This document shows positions 6,847 through 20,950 of a stretch of 35,971 bases of DNA, one piece after another; the first letter of the stretch is position 1, and every line of letters begins with the position of its first letter. The notes beneath the pieces are model-generated. The model was not told where the DNA came from, made no database searches, and saw only the letters and a program-made list of their open reading frames with translations. The translations under genes and the position numbers were made by a program. The stretch lies in the NCBI GenBank assembly GCA_902500775.1, contig CABVRZ010000043.1:1-35971 (forward strand), read 5' to 3'. This DNA comes from an uncultured Nitrospira sp. Its GTDB lineage: Bacteria; Nitrospirota; Nitrospiria; Nitrospirales; Nitrospiraceae.

Positions 6847-7785
6847 TTGACTGACACAAAAATCCGTCGGATGATGACGGTATCGGTGTCAGGCGCCAGG
6901 CCTGTGATCGACCATGAGTGTGACATGATAATCCCGGAAAGCCAGATACGTGCTCTGATTCGTCTCCTCTCCGATGAAGATGACCGCATCGTCCGCACCA
7001 TCAGCGGGAGACTGATCGATATCGGCCCTTCAGCCGTCCCTCTTCTGCAAGAAGCAGAAATTGAACAGCCGGAAATGGCTGATCGCATTGCCTCCGTCCT
7101 AGAGGAAATCCGCGGAAGCAAACTGGAGGAAGAGCTGACGGAGCTGACCTCCCTCTCGGATGAGGCCATGAGCCTTGAGACTGGGGCCTTCCTGATCGCG
7201 CGGTACGCCTATCCGGCGCTGGACGTGGCACGCTACCAGGACCAATTGGATACCATGGCTGCCGAAGTTCGAGCCCGTATCGGCCATCGAGCCTCCGGGG
7301 AGGAGGCCGTCAACGCCCTCAACCGCTATCTGTTCACGGAGCAAGGGTTTAAGGGAAATACCAAGAACTATTACGAGATTGAAAACAGCTATCTCAACTG
7401 CGTCATGGACCGACGAGTTGGGATCCCGATCAGTCTGTCGGTCGTGTACCTTCTCATTGGACAGCGACTCGCCTTTCCTCTCTTCGGCATCGGTATGCCG
7501 GGACATTTCTTGGTCAAGTACGAGTCCGACCGGTACAAGATTTTCATCGACTGTTTCAACGGAGGAGCCCTGCTGACGGAAAAGAACTGCGCTCGGTTTC
7601 TCACCGAAGCAGGGTACGGATTTGAGGAGAAATACCTCGAAAAAAGTCAGGTTCGAGCGATCTTGTCACGCATGCTCAAGAACCTCTTGGCCATTTACTC
7701 TAAGGCCGGCGACTCCGTGAAGATCACTCGTTTGACCAAGTTCATTGAGATCCTTGGCGGCGCGCCTCGCGAAGAAGGTCTCTAA
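6847..7785 (+). CDS. Transglutaminase-like SirB1-type protein
   Basis: Residues about 90-300 match the SirB1/transglutaminase-like core-2 family: FLIARYAYPALDVARYQ, then LNRYLFTEQGFKGN, YYEIENSYLNCVMDRRVGIPISLSVVYLLIG (in parts), FPLFGIGMPGHFLVKY and FIDCFNGGALLT. The Cys-His-Asp-like residues of the papain fold may be C(NCVMD), H(PGHFL) and D(FIDCF), but enzymatic activity of this family is unproven. The N-terminal segment (PESQIRALIRLLSDEDD) looks like a HEAT-type helix pair. The open frame begins at a TTG (6847); ATG codons at 6871 or 6925 (MIIPESQIR) are plausible alternatives, and 6925 fits relatives best. The stop codon TAA is followed directly by the second interspersed repeat. Confidence 0.82.
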   Translation: MTDTKIRRMMTVSVSGARPVIDHECDMIIPESQIRALIRLLSDEDDRIVRTISGRLIDIGPSAVPLLQEAEIEQPEMADRIASVLEEIRGSKLEEELTELTSLSDEAMSLETGAFLIARYAYPALDVARYQDQLDTMAAEVRARIGHRASGEEAVNALNRYLFTEQGFKGNTKNYYEIENSYLNCVMDRRVGIPISLSVVYLLIGQRLAFPLFGIGMPGHFLVKYESDRYKIFIDCFNGGALLTEKNCARFLTEAGYGFEEKYLEKSQVRAILSRMLKNLLAIYSKAGDSVKITRLTKFIEILGGAPREEGL

Positions 7786-7983: not shown

Positions 7984-8739
7984 CTAAAGCTTAATCGAGA
8001 GGAGATCCTTTCCCTTCCAAATCTTGCCGTGGTACTCCTCACCAGCCTGAGCTTTGACATCGTAGCGGTCCGCAATCGGGTAAAAATGCGACAGCACGAG
8101 TTGCCCCACTCCGGCCTCTTTCGCCACCTGTCCGCACTGTCCGGCGTGAAGATGAGCGGCCCCGGGACGATTGGCCGGGAAGGAGCAATCGAGCACGGCG
8201 AGATCGGCATCAGTGCACAACCGCACGAGCGCATCGCAATAGAGTGTGTCCCCCGAGTACACCAATGTCTTGCCCCGATATTCGATCCGATAACCCACCG
8301 ACGAGAGATCTGGAACATGCTCGACAGGTTTGGGAACGACGCGCGTACTCCCGATCGAGAAGGGTCGACCGGAGACCTCCTTGAAGGTGACCTGAAATGG
8401 AGCCGGTGAAAAGCTGGGGAAGCTCTGCATGATCGAGCGCAGAAGGCGGATGGTTCCTTTCGGCCCGATCAGCGTCATCCCCGGCCGACTGCCGCCCCCA
8501 TATTTTGTGTAAATCACCGCGTCGAAGAAGAAGGTAATAAAATCAGAAAAGTGATCGGCGTGAAAATGCGAAAACAAGATGTGCGTGATGCGATGCCGAT
8601 CGACGCCGGTCTTGATCAAGTTCATCAAGGTGCGCGGCCCAAAATCGAGCAGAATGTTGCGATCCGTCCGCACCAAATAGCCGGCGGCAGCCCGGGTCGG
8701 ATGCACATTCGTACCGGAGCCAAGAATCGTTAGACGCAT
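7984..8739 (-). CDS. MBL-fold metallo-hydrolase (RNase Z/arylsulfatase-like)
   Basis: The protein starts with MRLTILGSGTNVHPTRAAAGY, split by the usual beta-lactamase-fold strand and loop, and carries the zinc motif HFHADH at residues 58-63. It also has VEHVPDLSSVGYRIEYRGKTLVYSGDT (in parts) with the GDT metal ligand, FPANRPGAAHLHAGQCG and LVLSHFYP. The length (251) and motif set place it in the RNase Z-like branch, whose members include tRNA processing nucleases and many uncharacterised phosphodiesterases. Lying 23 bases downstream of a nucleotide cyclase gene, it could degrade a cyclic nucleotide or related product, but that is inference. A relic of a second copy of its 5' end lies at 12157-12231. 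Confidence 0.85.
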   Translation of the reverse strand: MRLTILGSGTNVHPTRAAAGYLVRTDRNILLDFGPRTLMNLIKTGVDRHRITHILFSHFHADHFSDFITFFFDAVIYTKYGGGSRPGMTLIGPKGTIRLLRSIMQSFPSFSPAPFQVTFKEVSGRPFSIGSTRVVPKPVEHVPDLSSVGYRIEYRGKTLVYSGDTLYCDALVRLCTDADLAVLDCSFPANRPGAAHLHAGQCGQVAKEAGVGQLVLSHFYPIADRYDVKAQAGEEYHGKIWKGKDLLSIKL

Positions 8740-8762
8740 AAGTCAGACCAATCAGCCATGAA

Positions 8763-11700
8763 TTATGGAGCGAGGCTCAGTTCATCAAGGATGGTTTGTG
8801 CTGCAACCACGTCTGGGTTCGTACTGTGTCGGCTGAATCTGAACCGGACTGAACCTAAGACCTCTGTAGCCATATCTGGTTTGTTGAGTTTTCTCAAGAG
8901 CCGGGCCATGCTCGTTGCGGCGCGTAGTTCGAATAGCCTCGCCTGCTGACTCTGGGCTACCGCTAAGGCTTTGGAGAAGCACTGCTCCGCCGCCGTAACC
9001 GGTTGGCCGGATTGCATGAGTACGAGTTCGCCCTGTATTCGAAACAGCTCAGCCTGCCAACACAACTCCCCTTGCGTCGCAACAAGCTCCTCTGCCTGTT
9101 GGATCGCAGCCAAGCCGTCCGTCACATGATGCACCCGCACATGACACTCTGCAAGCAACGCCAAGATACAGGTATTGATGAGACTCGCTTTCGCGCTCTG
9201 TGCCGCCGAGAGTCCCGCTACTACTCGCTCGATCCCTTTTTCTTGCCCTTGTTCGGCTAGGGCCCATCCCTGAAACGACATCGCCCATGCCAGCGGCACC
9301 TCGAATGAAAATTTGGTGGAAATCTGGATCGCTTCTTCGGTCACATCCAACGTTCTCTTGCTATCGCGGAGAGTGGAATAGACCCAGGCGGTTGTCGCTA
9401 AGGTGAAGGCCAGGGTGAAGGGATGTTCTAATGCTCTTGCCAGGGTAATGGCTTCCTCCACTAAGCCTTCGACCTCATCAACCTCTCCGGAAATCAATGT
9501 GTTTTGTGCCAGCATCATTCGCGCAGTAATGCCGGGATCTTGGGTATAGGGCAATCCATTCGAGCGATCCCGCGGGCGGTCCATGAGGGATTTGGCTTCG
9601 CGCAAATGGATCTTCGCTTCCTCGAACCGACCAAGAAACGTATCGGTGGACCCCACGCTTTCGTGCGCCCGAATCATCAAGGCGGGCTTGTCTTGCCTGA
9701 TAGCCAACGAGAGAAGCTCTTCGCCCAAGCCGCGAGCCTCGGCAAGCGGTCCTCTGGATAAACGAAACACCCATAATCCCCACAGAGAAAGAAAGTAATC
9801 CTCTGAACCAGGATTGGTTTCCGAAAGACGTTTGGCACTGAGAAAGTTTCGCTCAATGTCGTCCGACGCATACCCCTTGAGGATCAACAAGGGCGCTCCA
9901 CGTGCGATAAGCAGCGCCAGCTCCAACCCATCACGCACCGGATCTTTCGGCAACTCCTTGAGCAGATGGAGCGCACGATCAAAATGACTGATCGCTTCGA
10001 CATTCGCAGATCGCGCGATATCCCGCTCCGCCGCGCGACGCCAATACTCAATGGCCTGGCTCGGCAATCCCGCTTGTTCATAGTGATAGGCCAGTAATTC
10101 CGGCTCCGTCGTGACGCGCTCGGCAAACCGGCTCTCTAAGGTCTTTGCAATACGGGCATGAAGCGCTCGGCGTGATTTTTTGGGCAATGTGCTGTAAGCG
10201 GCATCTTGAACAAGCGCGTGTTTAAACAGATATTTTGCGGCAGGGATCTCGCCCGTTTGAAAAATGATCCCTGAGGCGCTCAATAAGTTCAGGGCAGTGT
10301 GTAACTCACCTTCCGTGACATCGGCGGTCTCGCGCAACAGCTCGTAGCTGAACTCTCGTCCGATCACGGCTCCCAGTTGGATGATATCCTTGGCAGGCCC
10401 CAATCGATCGATCCGTTCCATCAACAAGGCTTGGAGGGAGTCCGGAATGGAGAGGTCTTGTAACGGTGCCTTCAGACTGAACGAGTTGTCTTCTTCGATC
10501 AGCAATCCCGACTTGAGCACGTTGTCTGCCAATTCTTCGATATACAATGGAATCCCGTCGGTCTTCGCCAGAATGGCTTGTTCCACTTCCGACGGAAGGG
10601 CTTTTCCTTTGGTCATTGCGGCAAGCAGCTCCAGGCTATAACGTCGAGGGAGTCGGCTCAAGGTCAGGAACGTCACATGGCTGGACTCCGCCCACCCGAG
10701 TTTCACGTTCGGTCGAAGCGTCACGACCATCAAGACTCGCATCCGTTGGATCTGATCGAGAATCAGAGTCAGAAGATCCATGGTGGTCGGATCAAGCCAA
10801 TGCGCATCTTCCACGATAAAGAGAGTCGGAGTACGATCGGCGAGTCCACGGAGCTGTTGGACCAGCGCGTCAAGGGTCATTTCCTTGCGCTTTTCTGCCG
10901 ACATATTCGGGAGTTGATCCCGGGCATCACTGCGAATGGACAGCAGATCAGCCAGCAATGCTCGAGTGCGCTGACCATCGATGTCGTTGTGCTCTGTCCA
11001 TGCGTCAAGCTTCTGCAACTGCAGTGCGGGAGGATCTTCATCGCGTAGGCTCGCTGCCTGTCGTAGATAAGTGATGACCGGATAGAGCGCGGTATTGGTG
11101 TGATATGGGGAGCATTGGAATTGCATCGTTCGGCAGCCCTCTTCGGCAAGTCGGTCGCCTACGTTGTGGACCATGCGGGATTTGCCGATGCCGGCTTCTC
11201 CGCACAACACGACCACCTGTCCTTCACCGTCGACGGCTTCGCGCCAGCGCCCCATAAGCAGCGCCGTTTCCTGCTCTCTGCCGACGAAACTGCCGAGCCG
11301 ACCGGACCGATACGATTCAAACCGGCTGACCGAAGGCGTTGCGCTTAGAACCTGCCAGACGTGCACCGGCCCTTCAAATCCCTTGAGAGCCACGTCGCCT
11401 CGATCCTCGAACTCGAACTCACTTCCGACCAACCGTTTTGTCGCTGCGTCGATGACGACTTGATTGGGCGCCGCCACGGCCTGCAGCCGGGCGGCGAGAT
11501 TCGGAGTTTCACCGAATACCGATCGCTCCTTCGCGTGGTCCTGTCCCAAAATTTCCCCCACGATGACATGCCCGGTTGCAATCCCGATTCTTGCCCCGAA
11601 GTCAACATTCCGGTGGTCCGACTCTTCTCTGGGAAGACCTTTGACCAAATCCAGCACGGCCAGCCCGGCATGGACGGCTCGCTCTGCATCGTGCTCATAC

Positions 11701-12164
11701 GCACTAGGATAGCCGAAATACGCCAAGATCCCGTCACCCATATATTTAGCGACATATCCGTTGAATCGACGGATAGCCTCGCTTGAGGTATCCAGAAAAC
11801 GCCGGATGGTTGTCTGAAGATCCTCGGGGTCCAATTGACAGGCTAAGGACGTCGACCCCACAAGATCGCAAAACATGATCGTCAATTGGCGCCGCTCTGC
11901 GTGATCTCGATCTGATGGAGCCGGGTGGCGTTCCTGAGCGGGTGCAGGAAGCGGAGGATTCACATGCTCGCCTTCACCGCTGTTCGGCAGATGCGCAATA
12001 GCCCGCAGGAGCTTTTTCCGATGGCCCAGGAGCACACCCAAAGACGTCAAGTCTTCGTCGGTCAGCTCAGGCAACACATCCCACGTGATGGCATTCTGCT
12101 GAAATACGTCCCGATAAGTCCCAAGTCCGAGACCCTCCAGCCATATTGACACGCGATCATCCAT
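8763..12164 (-). CDS. SAM - class III nucleotide cyclase - AAA ATPase - TPR signalling protein (copy A)
   Basis: From the ATG at 12164 the protein has 1133 residues. A SAM domain spans about 3-60 (VSIWLEGLGL, ITWDVLPELTDEDLTSLGV). A class III cyclase catalytic domain spans about 91-273 with metal-binding Asp100 (FCDLVGS) and Asp144 (KYMGDG) and the NLAAR transition-state pair at 222-226; a Ser stands where many adenylate cyclases have Asp. An AAA/STAND ATPase begins near 294 (GREQET) with Walker A GEAGIGKS at 322-329 and Walker B TLFIVEDAHW. The last 450 or so residues are TPR-like helices. It probably makes cAMP or cGMP in response to a signal sensed by the ATPase-TPR part. The open frame extends upstream to 12215, but that extension overlaps the MBL relic and is not shared with copy B. 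Confidence 0.88.
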   Translation of the reverse strand: MDDRVSIWLEGLGLGTYRDVFQQNAITWDVLPELTDEDLTSLGVLLGHRKKLLRAIAHLPNSGEGEHVNPPLPAPAQERHPAPSDRDHAERRQLTIMFCDLVGSTSLACQLDPEDLQTTIRRFLDTSSEAIRRFNGYVAKYMGDGILAYFGYPSAYEHDAERAVHAGLAVLDLVKGLPREESDHRNVDFGARIGIATGHVIVGEILGQDHAKERSVFGETPNLAARLQAVAAPNQVVIDAATKRLVGSEFEFEDRGDVALKGFEGPVHVWQVLSATPSVSRFESYRSGRLGSFVGREQETALLMGRWREAVDGEGQVVVLCGEAGIGKSRMVHNVGDRLAEEGCRTMQFQCSPYHTNTALYPVITYLRQAASLRDEDPPALQLQKLDAWTEHNDIDGQRTRALLADLLSIRSDARDQLPNMSAEKRKEMTLDALVQQLRGLADRTPTLFIVEDAHWLDPTTMDLLTLILDQIQRMRVLMVVTLRPNVKLGWAESSHVTFLTLSRLPRRYSLELLAAMTKGKALPSEVEQAILAKTDGIPLYIEELADNVLKSGLLIEEDNSFSLKAPLQDLSIPDSLQALLMERIDRLGPAKDIIQLGAVIGREFSYELLRETADVTEGELHTALNLLSASGIIFQTGEIPAAKYLFKHALVQDAAYSTLPKKSRRALHARIAKTLESRFAERVTTEPELLAYHYEQAGLPSQAIEYWRRAAERDIARSANVEAISHFDRALHLLKELPKDPVRDGLELALLIARGAPLLILKGYASDDIERNFLSAKRLSETNPGSEDYFLSLWGLWVFRLSRGPLAEARGLGEELLSLAIRQDKPALMIRAHESVGSTDTFLGRFEEAKIHLREAKSLMDRPRDRSNGLPYTQDPGITARMMLAQNTLISGEVDEVEGLVEEAITLARALEHPFTLAFTLATTAWVYSTLRDSKRTLDVTEEAIQISTKFSFEVPLAWAMSFQGWALAEQGQEKGIERVVAGLSAAQSAKASLINTCILALLAECHVRVHHVTDGLAAIQQAEELVATQGELCWQAELFRIQGELVLMQSGQPVTAAEQCFSKALAVAQSQQARLFELRAATSMARLLRKLNKPDMATEVLGSVRFRFSRHSTNPDVVAAQTILDELSLAP

Positions 12165-12231
12165 GATCAAGATCCCCGGCGGCATGCGTGGGATGGACGT
12201 TGGTTCCAGAACCAAGGATGGTCAGGCGCAT
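12157..12231 (-). pseudogene. Relic of the 5' end of a second MBL-hydrolase gene
   Basis: Read on the minus strand from the ATG at 12231 this gives MRLTILGSGTNVHPT-HAAGDLDHG-stop. The first 15 residues are identical to the start of the intact MBL protein at 7984-8739, while 12 of those 15 codons differ at the third base. After codon 15 similarity stops after a few residues and a TGA ends the frame, overlapping the ATG of cyclase copy A (CATGGATGA). It lies 28 bases after the stop of cyclase copy B, as the intact MBL gene lies 23 bases after copy A. The remnant therefore marks an ancestral cyclase-MBL, cyclase-MBL tandem. It might still act as a coupled leader ORF for copy A. Confidence 0.82.
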
Positions 12232-12259
12232 GATTCAGATGGAGTTGATTGCAACGCGT

Positions 12260-15200
12260 TCATGATGCCACGGCAAGCTGATCAAGGAGAGCTTGCGCCG
12301 CCATGACGTCAGGATTGGCACATTGCCCACCAAACCTGGAGCGGATCAAACTGAGAGTACGTTTCGCAAGATCGAGCTTGTTCTGCTTTCTCAATAGCCT
12401 TGCCAAACTCACGGTGGCGCGTAGTTCCAACATGGTAGCATGCTGAGCTTGAGCGATCTCTCTTGCCTCAACAAAACACTGTTCCGCTGCACTGGCCAAT
12501 TGGCCCGATTGCGCCAGAAAGAGCTCGCCTTTCATGCGCAGCAGTTCTGCATGCCAACAGGCCTCTCCCTGCGAATGAACCAGTGCAAGGGCTTCCTCAA
12601 GCGCCCCTAACCCTTCGTCGATACGCTGTTTACGCAGATACACTTCCGCGAGCAACGCCAACATATGCGTATTGTTAAGGCACGCTTTGGCTGCTCGCAG
12701 TGCAGACAGCCCATCCAGGATACTTCCGAGGCCATGGTCTTTTCCCATTTCATCTATCGCCCAGCCATGAAAGAATGTCGCGTATGCCAAGGGCACTTCA
12801 AATGAGTATTTTTTCGAAAGAGTAATACTTTCTTCAGCAAGACTCAAAGTTCGTCTTGGGTCGCGAAGAATGGAATAGACCCATGGAACAGTTGCTAAGG
12901 CAAAAGCCAATGTAAAGGGGTGTTCCAATTTTCTCGCCATGCCAAGAGCTTCCTGCACCAACGCTTCGACATGATCAACTTCCCCCGAAATCAGTAGCGT
13001 CCTCGCGGTCATGACTCGCGCGGCGATACCAGGTTCCGCGATGTAGGGTAATACTAGTGGCCGATGTTTTTCACGAGTATAACCGACGGAACTAAGGACC
13101 GCCTTCGCAGTAACCAAATGAGTCTTGGCCTCAGCAAGTCGACCAAGAAATGAACAGGTTGTCCCCTGTGCTGTATGTGCCCGAATCAGGAACTCTTGAT
13201 TCCTGTGATACTGAGCCCACGAGAAAAGATTGTCCGCCAGATCACCAGCCGTGACAAGCGGCCCTCTGACCAGATGGAAAAGCCATAAACCCCACATGGC
13301 GAAAAAATAATACTCGGGATTGTTGCTCCCTTGTGATAGTTCCTTCACCCTGTGATAATTGTGCTCAGTTTCGTCGGAGGCATAGCCCTTAAGGCTAATG
13401 ATGACAGGGCCTCTGGCGACGAGAAGATCCAGCTCCAATGCATCACGCTCCGAATCTTGTGGCACACACCCCAATAACTCTAACGCCTTGTCAAGGTGAT
13501 ACAGCGCTTCGATGTGGGCTGAGCGTGCTACATCTCGCTGAGCCGCCAGAAACCAATACTTGATAGCTAGGCCCATCGATTCTGCCTGTTCATAGTGATG
13601 AGCCAGAAGCTCCGGTTCGTCCGCTGTCCGCTCGGCAAATGTATTCTCGATCGCTTGCGCAATGCGTATATGGAGCGTGTGCCGAGAGGCCTTGGTCAGA
13701 ATACCGTAGGCCGCATCCTGAATCAGGGCATGTCGAAACACATAGCGTGCGAGAGGGATCTCCTCCTCCTGCACAATGAGCCCGGACACAGCCAGGACAG
13801 AGAGCGCGTTCTGCAATTCACCTTCGGCCACGTCAACGACCTCTCGTAACAGCTCATAACTAAACTCCCGCCCAAGCGCGGCGCCGATTTGGGCAATCTC
13901 CTTGGCAAGCCCGAGCCGGTCGATCCGTTCGATGAGCAACGCGTGCAGAGAGTCCGGAACCGGTAAGTCTTTGAGCGGTGCCTTCAGACGGTAGCCATGA
14001 GTCTCCTCGATCAGTAACCCTGACTTGATCACGCTGTCCGTCAACTCTTCGACATAGAGCGGAACCCCCTCGGTCTTGGCCAGGATGGCTTGCTCGACTT
14101 CGAGTGGAAGGACTTTCCCTCCTGTCGTCGAGACCAGGAGCTCGGCGCTCTGTCGACGAGAGAGCCGACCCAGTGTCAGGAACATCACATGATTCAATTC
14201 CGACCACTTCGGTGTGAAGTCCGGACGAGCGGTGATCAGGAGCAGGCCTCGCATCCGCTGGATCCGAGCCATGACCCGGGTCAGAAACTCCATGGTGGTT
14301 GGGTCAATCCAATGGGCGTCCTCCACAATGCACAATGTTGGGCAACGATCGGCCATGTTCTGCAGGAGTTGCCCGAGCGCCTCAAGTGTCAGTTCTTTGC
14401 GCCTGTCCGGCGAGATCGTCAAGGATGAGTGCTCGTCGCCACCCGGAATGGAGAGGAGATCCGCCAATACCGCGATCGTGGTCTGATCAGATACGCCGTA
14501 GGTGTCGGCGAAGGTCTGGAGTGTCTGCAGTTGATTGATGGGACTGTCCTCACCGATCACTCCCATCGCCCGTCGAAGCGCATGAATCACGGGATAGAGG
14601 ACGGTGTTGGCATGGTGCGGGGAACACTGCAATTGTACCGTGTCGTGAGACTCCTCCCTCACCAGTTCGCATAAATGCCGGACCAGCTTAGACTTTCCAA
14701 TTCCCGCCTCTCCGGACAAGAGCACGACCTGTCCTTCACCCTCGACAGCCTCACACCAGCGGCTGAGCAACAGCGCGATTTCGCTTTCTCGGCCGATAAA
14801 ATGGGCTCGCCGATCTGCACGATATGATTCAAAGCGACTGACGGAGACATTCCTCCCGACGACCTGCCAGGATTGAACCGGCCGGTCAAATCCTTTGAGC
14901 GCAACCGCACCGCAATCCACACACTCAAATTCGTTTCCCACGAGACGCCTGGTCGTCGCATCGACAATCAATTGATTGGGCCCCGCCATCGACTGGAGAC
15001 GTGCCGCGAGATTCGGCGTTTCCCCGAACACCGACCGTTCTCTGGCGGTGTGTTCTCCGATGAGCTCGCCCACCAGCACGTGGCCGGTCGCGATCCCAAT
15101 GCGCACCGCAAGATTGTCTTCCTGCTGTCCATCACGCGGAAGGGCCTTCACCAAATCCAGCACGACCAGTCCGGCATGGATTGCTCGCTCGGCATCATGC

Positions 15201-15670
15201 TCACGGGCATGAGGGTATCCAAAATAGGCCAACAGGCCATCCCCCATGTATTTCGCAATATAGCCGTGGAATTGGCCAATGGCCTGACCACAAGTGTCCA
15301 AAAACCGTCGGAGAATCTGGTGAAGGTCTTCAGGATCCACCCGACGAGCCAGCGCGGTGGACCCGACGAGGTCGCAAAACATGATGGTCAGCTGCCGCCG
15401 TTCGGCTTGCCCTCGACTGGAAGAGGGCAGCGTGAATGGTTCCACAGCCGGTACGGCTTGAGCAGCCGCATGGTTTCCTTCACTGTCTTGTAACAGATGC
15501 GCGATAGCCCGCAGGAGCTTTTTCCGATGGCCCAGGAGCACACCCAAAGACGTCAAGTCCTCGTCGGTCAGCTCAGACAACACATCCCACGTGATGGCAT
15601 TCTGCTGAAATACGTCCCGATAGTGATCAAGGCCGAGGCTTTCGAGCCAGACTGAGACGCGATCACTCAT
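12260..15670 (-). CDS. SAM - class III nucleotide cyclase - AAA ATPase - TPR signalling protein (copy B)
   Basis: This is a paralogue of the gene at 8763-12164 with the same domain order and almost the same length (1136 residues from the ATG at 15670). It has SAM (VSVWLESLGLDHYRDVF), cyclase with FCDLVGS, KYMGDG and SVFGETPNLAARLQ, Walker A GEAGIGKS, Walker B LCIVEDAHWIDPTTM, and TPR-like repeats to the end. All catalytic residues are kept, so both copies look active. The open frame extends to an ATG at 15712 (MTTLSSFSSAQQYP), but the homologous start shared with copy A is the ATG at 15670. A 126-bp part of the SAM region is nearly identical between the two genes while other regions are much more diverged. 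The gene is transcribed away from the HEAT membrane protein gene. Confidence 0.88.
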   Translation of the reverse strand: MSDRVSVWLESLGLDHYRDVFQQNAITWDVLSELTDEDLTSLGVLLGHRKKLLRAIAHLLQDSEGNHAAAQAVPAVEPFTLPSSSRGQAERRQLTIMFCDLVGSTALARRVDPEDLHQILRRFLDTCGQAIGQFHGYIAKYMGDGLLAYFGYPHAREHDAERAIHAGLVVLDLVKALPRDGQQEDNLAVRIGIATGHVLVGELIGEHTARERSVFGETPNLAARLQSMAGPNQLIVDATTRRLVGNEFECVDCGAVALKGFDRPVQSWQVVGRNVSVSRFESYRADRRAHFIGRESEIALLLSRWCEAVEGEGQVVLLSGEAGIGKSKLVRHLCELVREESHDTVQLQCSPHHANTVLYPVIHALRRAMGVIGEDSPINQLQTLQTFADTYGVSDQTTIAVLADLLSIPGGDEHSSLTISPDRRKELTLEALGQLLQNMADRCPTLCIVEDAHWIDPTTMEFLTRVMARIQRMRGLLLITARPDFTPKWSELNHVMFLTLGRLSRRQSAELLVSTTGGKVLPLEVEQAILAKTEGVPLYVEELTDSVIKSGLLIEETHGYRLKAPLKDLPVPDSLHALLIERIDRLGLAKEIAQIGAALGREFSYELLREVVDVAEGELQNALSVLAVSGLIVQEEEIPLARYVFRHALIQDAAYGILTKASRHTLHIRIAQAIENTFAERTADEPELLAHHYEQAESMGLAIKYWFLAAQRDVARSAHIEALYHLDKALELLGCVPQDSERDALELDLLVARGPVIISLKGYASDETEHNYHRVKELSQGSNNPEYYFFAMWGLWLFHLVRGPLVTAGDLADNLFSWAQYHRNQEFLIRAHTAQGTTCSFLGRLAEAKTHLVTAKAVLSSVGYTREKHRPLVLPYIAEPGIAARVMTARTLLISGEVDHVEALVQEALGMARKLEHPFTLAFALATVPWVYSILRDPRRTLSLAEESITLSKKYSFEVPLAYATFFHGWAIDEMGKDHGLGSILDGLSALRAAKACLNNTHMLALLAEVYLRKQRIDEGLGALEEALALVHSQGEACWHAELLRMKGELFLAQSGQLASAAEQCFVEAREIAQAQHATMLELRATVSLARLLRKQNKLDLAKRTLSLIRSRFGGQCANPDVMAAQALLDQLAVAS

Positions 15671-15889
15671 GGGGTACTGTTGAGCAGATGAGAACGATGA
15701 CAGGGTTGTCATGCATCGCGCTGTTCTGAGAGAGATGGTCCATCATCCCTATGAACCTCGTCGACGACGATGAATGGCCGAGTATGACCAGTGCCGCAAG
15801 AGCTTGTCAATTACGACGCTCCTGCACCAACCCTGACTTGACGTTGCTCGAATGGGAACGACATGAAGTGAGAGCTCTCTGTCGATTCG

Positions 15890-15919
15890 TTGACGATCGG
15901 TTGATTGCACCCGTATGAT
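15890..15919 (+). promoter_or_regulatory. Sigma-70-type promoter of the HEAT membrane protein gene
   Basis: TTGACG at 15890-15895 and TATGAT at 15914-15919 are separated by 18 bases, close to consensus. Transcription would start near 15926, only a few bases before ATG codons at 15929 and 15938. The mRNA would then be leaderless or nearly so. Confidence 0.55.
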
Positions 15920-15928
15920 TCCCCACCC

Positions 15929-16591
15929 ATGATCACGATGCGGCATCGCGAGCAGGGGCAGGTGAATCCCGCGCTCCTCGTCATTCTCATCATTTGTCTC
16001 ATCACAGGCGTCTGGGTCTGGAAACGGCTTTCGCTCGAGACACAAGAGTACCTCGTCGATCAAGCCGTGCCCATGACCATTATCGGACTGGTCTGTGCCC
16101 TGCTCCTGTTCATTCCAATCAGATTGTTTCGTCGGCGCCAGGTGCGATCGCAAGAGCGAACGAGACTGCTGACGTTGTTTACCCGAGAAACTGCCCACGA
16201 AAAAAGACTGAATTTCGCCTTTGCCATCCTGGAAAATAACGAGTACCACATCGATGGGCTTGAATCCGCCATCCCAGCCCTGAAAGAGCTGTTGGCAACC
16301 ACGCTCCAACGGGCGTTGGGCGACAAACAGCATCGCGTCAGAGGGATGGCCGCCAGTCATTTGGGTGCCTTACAAGACAGGTCCGTAGTCCCGTTGCTGA
16401 TGAAGGCCTTGGACGACGACCATGCCTACGTGCGGGCCTGTGCGGCCTTAGGGCTCGGACGATTGCGGGCGACCGAAGCGCGAGAGCGTTTGAAGACAGC
16501 GATGGAGCATGATTGGGATCAAACCGTCAGAAGCCGAGCCAGGGAGGCACTGGAGCGGCTGCGTGAAGAAGCACCAACCCAACGGCCCTGA
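15929..16591 (+). CDS. Membrane-anchored HEAT-repeat protein
   Basis: From the ATG at 15929 the protein is 220 residues. Two transmembrane segments (NPALLVILIICLITGVWVW and VPMTIIGLVCALLLFIPI) are followed by a soluble helical domain. The C-terminal half has HEAT/PBS-lyase-type repeats: HRVRGMAASHLGALQDRSVVP, then AYVRACAALGLGRLRATEA and QTVRSRAREALERLRE. Such repeats normally mediate protein-protein contacts, so a scaffolding role at the inner membrane is likely; no enzyme motif is seen. The frame opens at a TTG (15905), but the promoter at 15890-15919 covers that codon, so 15929 or 15938 is preferred. It is divergent from cyclase copy B. Confidence 0.72.
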   Translation: MITMRHREQGQVNPALLVILIICLITGVWVWKRLSLETQEYLVDQAVPMTIIGLVCALLLFIPIRLFRRRQVRSQERTRLLTLFTRETAHEKRLNFAFAILENNEYHIDGLESAIPALKELLATTLQRALGDKQHRVRGMAASHLGALQDRSVVPLLMKALDDDHAYVRACAALGLGRLRATEARERLKTAMEHDWDQTVRSRAREALERLREEAPTQRP

Positions 16592-17518: not shown

Positions 17519-19315
17519 ATGGCAAATATCATTGGCACCAATAGCAACAATACCCTCAATGGCACCGCCAGTGCGGACACCCTCATCGGCCGGGCTGGCA
17601 ACGATACGTTGAACGGCTCGGGCGGAAATGACCGGCTGAACGGAGGCGTCGGCACCGACATCCTGAACGGCAGCACCGGCATCGACACCGCCGACTACAG
17701 CAACCTCGTCATCAACGGGACAACGTACACTGGCGCCACCGCCGGCGTGACCGTCAACCTTGGGCTGACAAGCGCCCAGAACACCGGCGGCGCGGGGACC
17801 GATACGCTCAAGAGTATTGAGAACCTCATCGGGACGAGTTTCGCCGATCGCCTCACGGGCAATAGTGGGAACAACGTGCTGTCCGGTCTGGCGGGCAACG
17901 ATACGTTACTCGGCGGCGGTGGCAACGACCGATTAAACGGAGGGGCAGGCGATGACCGATTGGATGGCGGCACCGGCAACGACACGGCTGACTACAGCAC
18001 CGCGACGGCTGGGATTCAGGCTCGTCTCGGCTTGATCTTCTCGCAAGATACCGTCGGAGCCGGGGTTGACACCTTTGCGAGTATCGAGGACCTGATCGGC
18101 TCGAACTTCGCCGACCGACTTGGTGGTGATCAGGGAAACAATAGGCTCACCGGCCTGGGTGGTAACGACGTCATCCTGGCGGGCGATGGCGACGACACCC
18201 TCAACGGAGGAGATGGCATCGATCAGCTCTTTGGCGACTACGGAAGCGATACCTTGGCTGGTGGAAGTGGTCTGGACCATCTCGAGGGATGGGAGGGGGA
18301 CGATCGACTGGACGGAGGCACGGGGGCCGACGTCATGTATGGCGGCAACGGAGATGATACCTATGTCGTCGACCACGTGGGCGATGTGGCAGCAGAGGTA
18401 ATTGGCGTGGTGTCCTATGATGGGGTTGACGAGGTGCAGTCATCCGTGACCCATACGCTGGGCTTCGAAATCGAGTACCTCACCCTGACCGGCACAGCGG
18501 CCATCAATGGGACGGGCAACGAGCTGAACAATCGGATGATTGGGAATGCGGCCAACAACGTGCTCACTGGGCTGGGGGGCGACGACTTTATAGACGGCGG
18601 TGCTGGGGCAGACCGCATGGTTGGCGGAGACGGAAACGATAAATATATCGTGGACCAGGTGGGCGATGTGGTGGTGGAAGCCCGTGACGATGCGGCCGGC
18701 GGAATTGACAGAGTGCAATCGTCCGTGAGCTATACGCTGGGCTTCGAGATTGAGGATCTCTACTTGGCCGGCACGGCTGCCATCAATGGTACGGGCAACA
18801 CAAAGAGCAATGTCCTCGTAGGCAATACCACCAACAACGTACTCTCTGGTCTGGATGGTTCTGATTTCATCTTCGGCTATGAGGGCAATGACCAGCTCAG
18901 CGGTGGCAACGGCGATGACCGGCTCAACGGCGGCAACGGCAATGATTCTCTGGGAGGTGCGCTCGGAGCCGATCTTCTGAGCGGCGGTTTGGGGAACGAT
19001 AAGTTCATTTATAAAAAGATCAGCGATAGCCCGTCGGGCACAGACCTGGATGCCATCCTCGACTTCACGGGAAACGACGCGGGGATCGGGGACGTGATTG
19101 ACCTGAAATCTCTCGACACTAATATTGAGTTAGCCGGTAACCAGGACTTCACCTACATTGGCAGCACAGCCTTTACGGCGGCTGGCCAACTCCGCTATGC
19201 CGGCGGGCTCTTGCAGGGCAACACCGATGCAGATGCGGCAGCGGAGTTTGAAATTGAGCTGGTCGGGGCTCCGGCCCTCACCGTGGGAGGAGCAGGCACG
19301 GACATCTTGTTGTAA
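17519..19315 (+). CDS. RTX calcium-binding repeat protein 1
   Basis: This 598-residue acidic, cysteine-free protein is built almost wholly of RTX nonapeptides of the GGxGxDxLx type (GRAGNDTLNG, GGGGNDRLNG, GGNGDDTYVVD). Blocks of the type ADYSTATAGIQARLGL and two copies of a VDxVGDV...SSVxxTLGFEIE...LxGTAAINGTGN module (about residues 285-350 and 380-440) separate the repeats. The last 110 residues (ILDFTGND, TYIGSTAFTAAGQLRYAGGL, EIELVGAPALTVGGAGTDILL) resemble the serralysin C-terminal domain and uncleaved type I secretion signals. It is probably exported by a type I system and folds on calcium outside; no enzymatic domain or exporter gene is in the window. AAAGGAG lies 8 bases before the ATG. 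Confidence 0.92.
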   Translation: MANIIGTNSNNTLNGTASADTLIGRAGNDTLNGSGGNDRLNGGVGTDILNGSTGIDTADYSNLVINGTTYTGATAGVTVNLGLTSAQNTGGAGTDTLKSIENLIGTSFADRLTGNSGNNVLSGLAGNDTLLGGGGNDRLNGGAGDDRLDGGTGNDTADYSTATAGIQARLGLIFSQDTVGAGVDTFASIEDLIGSNFADRLGGDQGNNRLTGLGGNDVILAGDGDDTLNGGDGIDQLFGDYGSDTLAGGSGLDHLEGWEGDDRLDGGTGADVMYGGNGDDTYVVDHVGDVAAEVIGVVSYDGVDEVQSSVTHTLGFEIEYLTLTGTAAINGTGNELNNRMIGNAANNVLTGLGGDDFIDGGAGADRMVGGDGNDKYIVDQVGDVVVEARDDAAGGIDRVQSSVSYTLGFEIEDLYLAGTAAINGTGNTKSNVLVGNTTNNVLSGLDGSDFIFGYEGNDQLSGGNGDDRLNGGNGNDSLGGALGADLLSGGLGNDKFIYKKISDSPSGTDLDAILDFTGNDAGIGDVIDLKSLDTNIELAGNQDFTYIGSTAFTAAGQLRYAGGLLQGNTDADAAAEFEIELVGAPALTVGGAGTDILL

Positions 19316-19459: not shown

Positions 19460-20950
19460 ATGGCAAATATCATTGGCACCAACAGCAACAATACCCTCAA
19501 TGGCACCGCCAGTGCGGACACCCTCATCGGCCGGGCTGGCAACGATACCTTGAATGGCTCGGGCGGTAATGACCGTCTGAATGGGGGCACCGGCACCGAC
19601 ATCCTGAACGGCGGCACCGGCATCGACACGGCTGACTACAGCAACGTGGTGCTCAACGGCACGACGTATATCGGCGCCACCGCTGGCGTGACCGTCAACC
19701 TTGGCCTGACAAGCGCCCAGAACACCGGCGGCTCGGGGATCGATACGCTCAAGAGTATTGAGAACCTCATCGGGACGAATTTCGCCGACCGCCTCACCGG
19801 CAACAGTGCGAACACCGTGCTCTCCGGCTTGGCGGGCAACGATACATTACTCGGTGGCGGAGGTAACGACCGATTGATCGGAGGAGCTGGCAACGACCGT
19901 TTAGATGGGGGCACCGGCCTCGACACGGCTGACTACAGCACGGCCACGGCTGGAGTTGAGGCCATTCTCGACGTGTTCTTCTCACAGAACACCGTCGGCG
20001 CGGGTGTTGACACCCTCGTGAGTATCGAGAACCTCATCGGCTCGAACTTTGCCGATCGCCTCGAGGGTGATGAGGGCCACAATGTGCTCTCCGGGTTGAG
20101 GGGAAATGACCTCTTAGTCGGAGGTGACGGCAACGACACTCTCAACGGAGGGGATGGCACCGATCTGCTCTTTGGCGACTACGGGAACGATACCGTGGCT
20201 GGTGGAAGTGGTCTGGATCATCTCGAGGGATCAGAGGGGGACGACCGGTTGGACGGAGGCACGGGGGCTGACGTCATGCGTGGGGGTAATGGGAATGATA
20301 CCTATCTCGTCGACCATGTGGGCGATGTGGTGGCGGAGTTGGTTGGCCCCGTGTTATTTGACGGATATGACAGAGTGGAGTCATCCGTGACCCATACGCT
20401 GGGATTCGGAATCGAGTCCCTCGCCCTGACCGGCACCGCAGCCATCAATGGGACGGGCAACACGGAGGATAATGTCCTCAGCGGCACAAACACCAACAAC
20501 GTGCTCTCGGGACAGGAGGGTGACGACGCGCTCTACGGTATCATAGGCAATGACCAGCTGTTCGGTGGAAGCGGGGATGACCGATTGATCGGGGGAGCTG
20601 GGGCGGACATTATGGATGGCGGCGCGGGGAACGATCGCTTTATTTATGGCTCGTTCAGCGAACGTCTCGACGGAACAGATCGGGATACCATCCTCGACTT
20701 CATTGGAGCGGGGGCGGGGATCGGAGACCAGATCAATCTAGGGGCTATAGATGCCAATAGCCTGGTGGCCGGGGACCAAGCCTTTACCTACATTGGCAGC
20801 GCGTCCTTTTCGACAGCAGGTCAGCTCCGCTATGCCGGAGGGCTTTTACAAGGCGATGTCGATGGGAATGGGGTGGCGGACATCGAGATTCAGCTGATCG
20901 GGGCTCCGGCCCTCACCGTTGGGGGTGCAGGCACTGACATCATTCTGTAA
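19460..20950 (+). CDS. RTX calcium-binding repeat protein 2
   Basis: This is a tandem paralogue of RTX protein 1 with a nearly identical start (MANIIGTNSNNTLNGTASAD) and the same order of blocks. It is 496 residues long because one of the two roughly 100-residue modules (VDHVGDV...TLGFGIE...INGTGN) is absent. The C-terminal secretion-type domain is kept (ILDFIGAGAGIGDQINLG, TYIGSASFSTAGQLRYAGGL, ALTVGGAGTDIIL). The gap to RTX gene 1 is 144 bases and repeats the leader hairpin and ribosome binding site of the first gene. No separate promoter is obvious, so it is probably read through from the sigma-54 promoter. Role as for RTX 1: a secreted or surface calcium-binding protein. Confidence 0.92.
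   Translation: MANIIGTNSNNTLNGTASADTLIGRAGNDTLNGSGGNDRLNGGTGTDILNGGTGIDTADYSNVVLNGTTYIGATAGVTVNLGLTSAQNTGGSGIDTLKSIENLIGTNFADRLTGNSANTVLSGLAGNDTLLGGGGNDRLIGGAGNDRLDGGTGLDTADYSTATAGVEAILDVFFSQNTVGAGVDTLVSIENLIGSNFADRLEGDEGHNVLSGLRGNDLLVGGDGNDTLNGGDGTDLLFGDYGNDTVAGGSGLDHLEGSEGDDRLDGGTGADVMRGGNGNDTYLVDHVGDVVAELVGPVLFDGYDRVESSVTHTLGFGIESLALTGTAAINGTGNTEDNVLSGTNTNNVLSGQEGDDALYGIIGNDQLFGGSGDDRLIGGAGADIMDGGAGNDRFIYGSFSERLDGTDRDTILDFIGAGAGIGDQINLGAIDANSLVAGDQAFTYIGSASFSTAGQLRYAGGLLQGDVDGNGVADIEIQLIGAPALTVGGAGTDIIL

Follow-up and report, generated by a model that had tools for sequence, protein, structure and literature searches.

The window, by which we mean the whole stretch of DNA analysed here (35,971 nt from an uncultured Nitrospira sp.), contains two tandem cyclase genes that lie between a gene for a HEAT-repeat protein and a gene for an intact MBL-fold hydrolase, followed by a gene for a transglutaminase-core protein (Table 1). 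Pfam searches matched the MBL protein to Lactamase_B_2 and both cyclases to SAM_1, Guanylate_cyc and AAA_16, with TPR also detected in cyclase B. Comparison of 175 genomes of the family indicated that the MBL gene is near-universal and mostly single copy (113 of 114 good genomes), and that its usual neighbours across the family are a HEAT-repeat gene and a transglutaminase-like gene. Only in the genus Nitrospira were one or two cyclases found between the HEAT and MBL genes, giving the order HEAT / cyclase(s) / MBL / transglutaminase, with a SAM-adenylate cyclase-AAA-TPR gene directly upstream of the MBL gene. Several Nitrospira genomes have no cyclases between these two genes, and no cyclase adjoined the MBL gene in the other genera looked at. 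Further along the window, two adjacent plus-strand genes (17519-19315 and 19460-20950) encode proteins of 598 and 496 aa made up mostly of RTX calcium-binding repeats.

Table 1. Positions of the features discussed at the cyclase-MBL locus
Feature	Position in window	Strand	Description
Transglutaminase-core (SirB1-like) protein	6847..7785	plus	conserved flank, MBL side
Intact MBL-fold hydrolase	7984..8739	minus	251 aa, YhfI/Rv1339-like; recombinant gene, judged from sequence identities
Cyclase B (MBL-proximal)	8763..12164	minus	SAM-class III cyclase-AAA-TPR, ~1133 aa, likely ATG 12164
MBL 5' stub	12157..12231	minus	24-codon frame, homologous to MBL codons 1 to ~22, one codon deleted
Spacer, cyclase A stop to stub	12232..12259	minus	28 nt, homologous only to G113 stub-array spacer
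Cyclase A (HEAT-proximal)	12260..15670	minus	~1136 aa, likely ATG 15670
HEAT-repeat protein	15905..16591	plus	conserved locus flank

The short frame between the cyclases translates as MRLTILGSGTNVHPTHAAGDLDHG and a stop, and the intact MBL protein begins with MRLTILGSGTNVHPTRAAAGYLV. The initial annotation had described this frame as repeating the first 15 MBL residues with 12 of 15 codons changed synonymously, which is exact: relative to the MBL gene of the same genome, codons 1, 6 and 13 are identical and the other 12 carry synonymous differences. Residues 17-18 match as well. The TGA of the stub (12159-12157) lies within ATGGATGA, where the frame overlaps the likely start of cyclase B. Local alignment of the stub to the MBL gene scored 87, against 49 for the best shuffle, and the stub was the sole additional place found when the whole genome was searched at the protein level with the MBL start. 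When a 41-base degenerate pattern was used (two mismatches allowed, with the reversed pattern as control), only a few of the 175 family genomes yielded a second copy; the reversed pattern gave zero matches in the same genomes. Chance resemblance of the stub to the MBL gene is ruled out by the shuffles and genome searches. A complete second MBL gene was not found elsewhere in the window's own genome, which encodes only a distant MBL protein (30% identity).

Identity of the MBL-fold hydrolase and the cyclases

The predicted structure of the MBL protein (pLDDT 92) was searched by fold, and YhfI (6kns/6knt) took ranks 1-6 (E 5e-21 to 6e-20, TMq 0.81-0.85); YhfI was also the best match in a phmmer search of the PDB (1.8e-17), and it came ahead of RNase Z in both the sequence and the fold searches. 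The motif SHFHADH at residues 57-63 fits [T/S]HXHXDH, and among 34 family MBLs D62, H63 and D164 are invariant and S57, H58 and H60 are at least 90% conserved. RNase Z fits [T/S]HXHXDH too, so the motif does not discriminate between the two. The best NCBIfam match in 34 of 34 members was NF041851 (cyclic nucleotide-degrading phosphodiesterase), with a score of 123.9 bits for the MBL protein that lies far below the curated equivalog cut-off of 400; models of RNase Z came close to this score. Rv1339, Corynebacterium glutamicum CpdA and YhfI have been classed together as atypical class-II phosphodiesterases that carry [T/S]HXHXDH, and Mycobacterium tuberculosis Rv1339 hydrolysed cAMP in extracts and lowered cAMP in cells (PMC9293780, PMC9995111). 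With Rv1339, CpdA and Bacillus subtilis YhfI the Nitrospira protein shares the MBL fold, the motif, an alignment to NF041851 over its full length and YhfI as best fold match; unlike them, it remains far from the equivalog score (124 versus 400 bits), and it has a cyclase as its operon-order neighbour in some members of a single genus only. The gene thus probably encodes a YhfI/Rv1339-like cyclic-nucleotide phosphodiesterase.

The main alternative is that the MBL protein could be a housekeeping nuclease in the role of RNase Z, with no link to cAMP, in which case the cyclase merely landed upstream of it and the MBL debris described below marks that location. RNase Z (tRNase Z) belongs to the same superfamily and is similar in its N-terminal and HxHxDH regions, and a near-universal, mostly single-copy gene would suit such a role, as would the finding that no RNase Z scored above cut-off in the window's genome or in 29 relatives, with the MBL protein among the matches of the model. 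However, the RNase Z model TIGR02651 reached 95 bits on the MBL protein, far below its cut-off of 293, and in the genome search its match was split into two pieces at the MBL gene (54.5 and 40.1 bits), leaving unmatched model positions 150-200, about where we take the tRNA-binding flexible arm of RNase Z to be located. Moreover, CCA was encoded in all 35 of the 35 tRNA predictions checked, so an RNase Z role is not required for CCA ends and the idea of a need arising from CCA-less tRNAs found no support. Since YhfI also ranks above RNase Z in both the sequence and the fold comparison, we regard the nuclease role as rather unlikely.

The cyclases scored above the cut-off of PF00211, in line with class III adenylate cyclases. 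In an alignment of 44 sequences, the motifs FCDLVGST, AKYMGDG and GETPNLAARL were conserved in nearly all copies, and the two metal-binding Asp, the base-contacting Lys and the transition-state Asn and Arg were kept, save for one copy with H in place of Asn; the roles of these residues are assumed from general knowledge of the class III family. The base-specificity position, read by eye, is Ser, presumably as in class IIIb. Conserved catalytic motifs are shared with the TIGR03903-type class III adenylate cyclases that carry AAA and TPR regions (TOMM kinase/cyclase fusions), but the Nitrospira cyclase differs from these in its N-terminal SAM domain, in its linkage to the MBL gene and in a score of 540 bits against a cut-off of 706, obtained from model position 252/280 on.

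MBL sequences behind Nitrospira cyclases

Cyclase-MBL neighbours in other genomes, which the initial annotation had proposed to look for, were found within Nitrospira. We considered 51 cyclases, comprising all fetched Nitrospira copies of the family with a visible 3' end after removal of repeats. An intact MBL gene follows 43 of them, on the same strand, within 17-64 nt and behind a spacer of 13-54 nt, and MBL debris follows the remaining eight, likewise no more than 64 nt away. Four of the debris cases are 5' stubs (the window, G113, G061:C32 and G053). The other four, all in tandem arrays, consist of MBL codons 204-225: these RVAQGAGAGQLILSHFYPIAD-like fragments lie 27-30 nt past the stop of the first cyclase, between tandem cyclases, at loci L034 (G083), L037 (G107), L054 (G109) and L071 (G104).

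Extra copies also occur away from the HEAT locus. Genomes keeping both MBL copies, likewise sought, were found in G067 (L107) and G085 (L108), each of which has a complete second cyclase-MBL pair at a distance from the HEAT locus and retains the original MBL gene. The dispersed cyclase of G061 (C32, locus L104) is trailed by the stub MHPTVLGSGTNVHPTPACPG, and that of G053 (L117) by RLTILGS, seven codons that are the sole MBL remainder there and whose start codon is ACG. The G053 debris did not score above shuffles and is accepted as real because in position and spacer it agrees with the intact G067 pair. Spacers in G053 and G061:C32 are as long as those of intact G067/G093-type pairs, and the G053 spacer is similar to these in sequence also. 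Resemblance of the spacers to the G093/G060 subgroup in length, and partly in sequence, suggests that the dispersed loci of G067, G085, G053 and G061 arose by horizontal transfer of a cyclase with all or part of the MBL gene.

Since all 51 of the 51 Nitrospira cyclases are followed by MBL or its debris, the cyclase would have been amplified from the MBL locus, carrying pieces of the MBL gene with it. The initial annotation, which had proposed duplication of a cyclase-MBL cassette with loss of one MBL gene, therefore holds in so far as the stub is MBL debris from cyclase-MBL amplification, given the debris behind extra Nitrospira copies and the complete second pairs; the course of events that it envisaged at this locus fares less well (see below). 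Debris of this kind offers a clean record of the spread of a signalling gene from one locus.

Age, origin and possible constraint of the truncated junction

Among the 175 family genomes, stub arrays were carried only by the window's genome and G113, both of them draft assemblies. Across 84,980 species genomes, possibly without the window's own, a scan returned G113 only, and G113 was still the only carrier besides the window when the search was repeated with a completeness filter of 0. The G113 array consists of a cyclase, a 28-nt spacer, the stub and the ATGGATGATC of the next cyclase, with the join at the same MBL codon as in the window. The two 28-nt spacers aligned with a score of 6, reached by 0 of 1,000 shuffles, and are unlike any spacer preceding an intact MBL gene. 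When scanned in 150-nt windows, the two arrays were mutual best matches around the junction, and the cyclase bodies on both sides of it matched different species. As the junction is common to both, the cut predates the split of the two lineages, and the truncation is old and probably of single origin. The simplest reading would be that the MBL gene was truncated once, long ago, and that the cyclases on either side were exchanged afterwards, although it may instead have been cut twice, independently, at this codon.

Cyclase B shares 88-89% identity with the G084 cyclase, and cyclase A groups with G070/G057. Cyclases at the window locus are mosaics, and because of this no single cyclase tree fits; trees of these genes were accordingly set aside for dating the array. 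The intact MBL gene of the window is 92-99% identical to G057/G059 over its last ~150 nt and ~80% identical to all relatives outside them, and from these identities we infer that it is a recombinant. It follows from such an origin that the 12 synonymous changes reflect divergence between lineages rather than the lifetime of a paralogue. The stub itself is closest to the MBL starts of G057, G059, G062, G088 and G095 (41/45), compared with 33/45 for the MBL start of its own genome.

These comparisons bear on the claim of the initial annotation that the second MBL gene was long under selection before being cut, that is, on a history in which a complete cyclase-MBL cassette was duplicated here, both MBL genes were selected for a long time and one was then deleted except for its start. 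Larger parts of the MBL gene did travel, as the codon 204-225 debris between tandem cyclases in four genomes attests, and two complete pairs are kept elsewhere in G067 and G085. Yet the same truncation junction recurs in G113, a genome with cyclases far removed in sequence from those of the window, the stub is nearer to the MBL starts of G057/G059/G062 than to the one in its own genome, and the MBL gene of the window is recombinant. We consider the complete-cassette history improbable, and prolonged selection on a second MBL gene does not follow from a cut that is old and synonymous changes that separate lineages. A tandem duplication with its end point within the MBL gene would account for this picture equally, with no complete second MBL involved.

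We also asked whether the stub is still under constraint. Between the stubs of the window and G113, all seven changes in codons 2-15 are synonymous (7/7), in a comparison of two sequences only with 12.3 synonymous and 29.7 nonsynonymous sites; the probability of the all-synonymous pattern was 2-5e-4 analytically and 0.6-1.3e-3 by simulation. Codon positions 1 and 2 differ at 1/28 sites, compared with 11/28 in the adjacent spacer, and the sole indel is a whole codon that keeps the frame. The signal is weaker for the whole stub (P 0.009-0.02), in which codons 16-22 of the window copy changed freely. Among other debris, differing 3' fragments have 0-1 synonymous versus 4-8 nonsynonymous changes, and 3-4 of 7 changes in the G061:C32 stub are nonsynonymous. 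These two sequences are suggestive of constraint that possibly persists on the window/G113 stub.

Such a pattern would be expected if the stub were a maintained leader, at which ribosomes start, stop in ATGGATGA and reinitiate on the second cyclase while selection continues; the synonymous bias in codons 2-15, the slow change at positions 1 and 2 and the preserved frame are consistent with this, as is the decay of other MBL debris without synonymous bias. The comparison has two members, however, and its signal is diluted by the freely changing codons 16-22. The overlapping TGA comes with the cyclase start ATGGATGATC itself, no Shine-Dalgarno sequence was found by eye, and gene conversion from an intact MBL gene or two independent truncations would also preserve the residues. 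We therefore treat a maintained leader as a tentative possibility, with the odds against it. It is doubtful that the truncated gene start was recruited as a leader constrained at the protein level, its first 15 codons coupling the second cyclase to a cyclase-phosphodiesterase operon.

A putative cyclase-phosphodiesterase operon

The reading that we favour, and consider fairly likely, is that the cyclase came to form an operon upstream of a phosphodiesterase-like MBL gene and that its copies carried parts of that gene. A SAM-adenylate cyclase-AAA-TPR gene would have been placed directly upstream of the core MBL gene, creating a two-gene operon, and further copies of it would later have arisen both in tandem and elsewhere in the genome, each with all or part of the following MBL; the 24-codon frame would be the remaining 5' end of one MBL gene carried along in this way, at an array junction that Nitrospira G113 also has. 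This account builds on the observed homology, gene order, debris behind the extra Nitrospira copies and shared junction. The two genes would be co-transcribed, with the cyclase predicted to make cAMP and the MBL protein to degrade it, and any role left to the stub would be no more than that of a short upstream frame, its stop overlapping the second cyclase's start.

The proposal that the two proteins pair as maker and remover of a nucleotide signal is plausible and reasonable, though the pairing is not obligatory because the MBL gene mostly stands alone and, in the sister genus g17, the cyclase occurs with no MBL gene beside it. In g17, members of the same cyclase family (64-67% identity) lie away from the MBL locus, and neither MBL nor MBL debris was found downstream of them. 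Conservation of the MBL gene without a nearby cyclase, together with these g17 cyclases, means that the linkage may just reflect the place at which the cyclase happened to land. The g17 cyclases (L174-L178) form tandem pairs too.

A full-text literature search retrieved no paper centred on linkage of a cyclase and a phosphodiesterase-like hydrolase in Nitrospira, and nothing relevant on a Nitrospira adenylate cyclase or a cyclase-MBL operon. A cyclase adjoining a phosphodiesterase-like hydrolase, with pieces of the hydrolase gene marking all examined Nitrospira copies, is a sign at the genome level that nitrite oxidisers may use cAMP signalling, and the linkage opens a direct test of the near-universal MBL protein as remover of the cyclase product. 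Five matches to cNMP-binding domains were detected in the window's own genome, and the proteins bearing them are possible receivers of the signal. A region of ~21 kb on another contig of this genome (C19, 51843-72501) encodes two more class III cyclase domains alongside two cNMP-binding domains and the distant MBL protein noted above.
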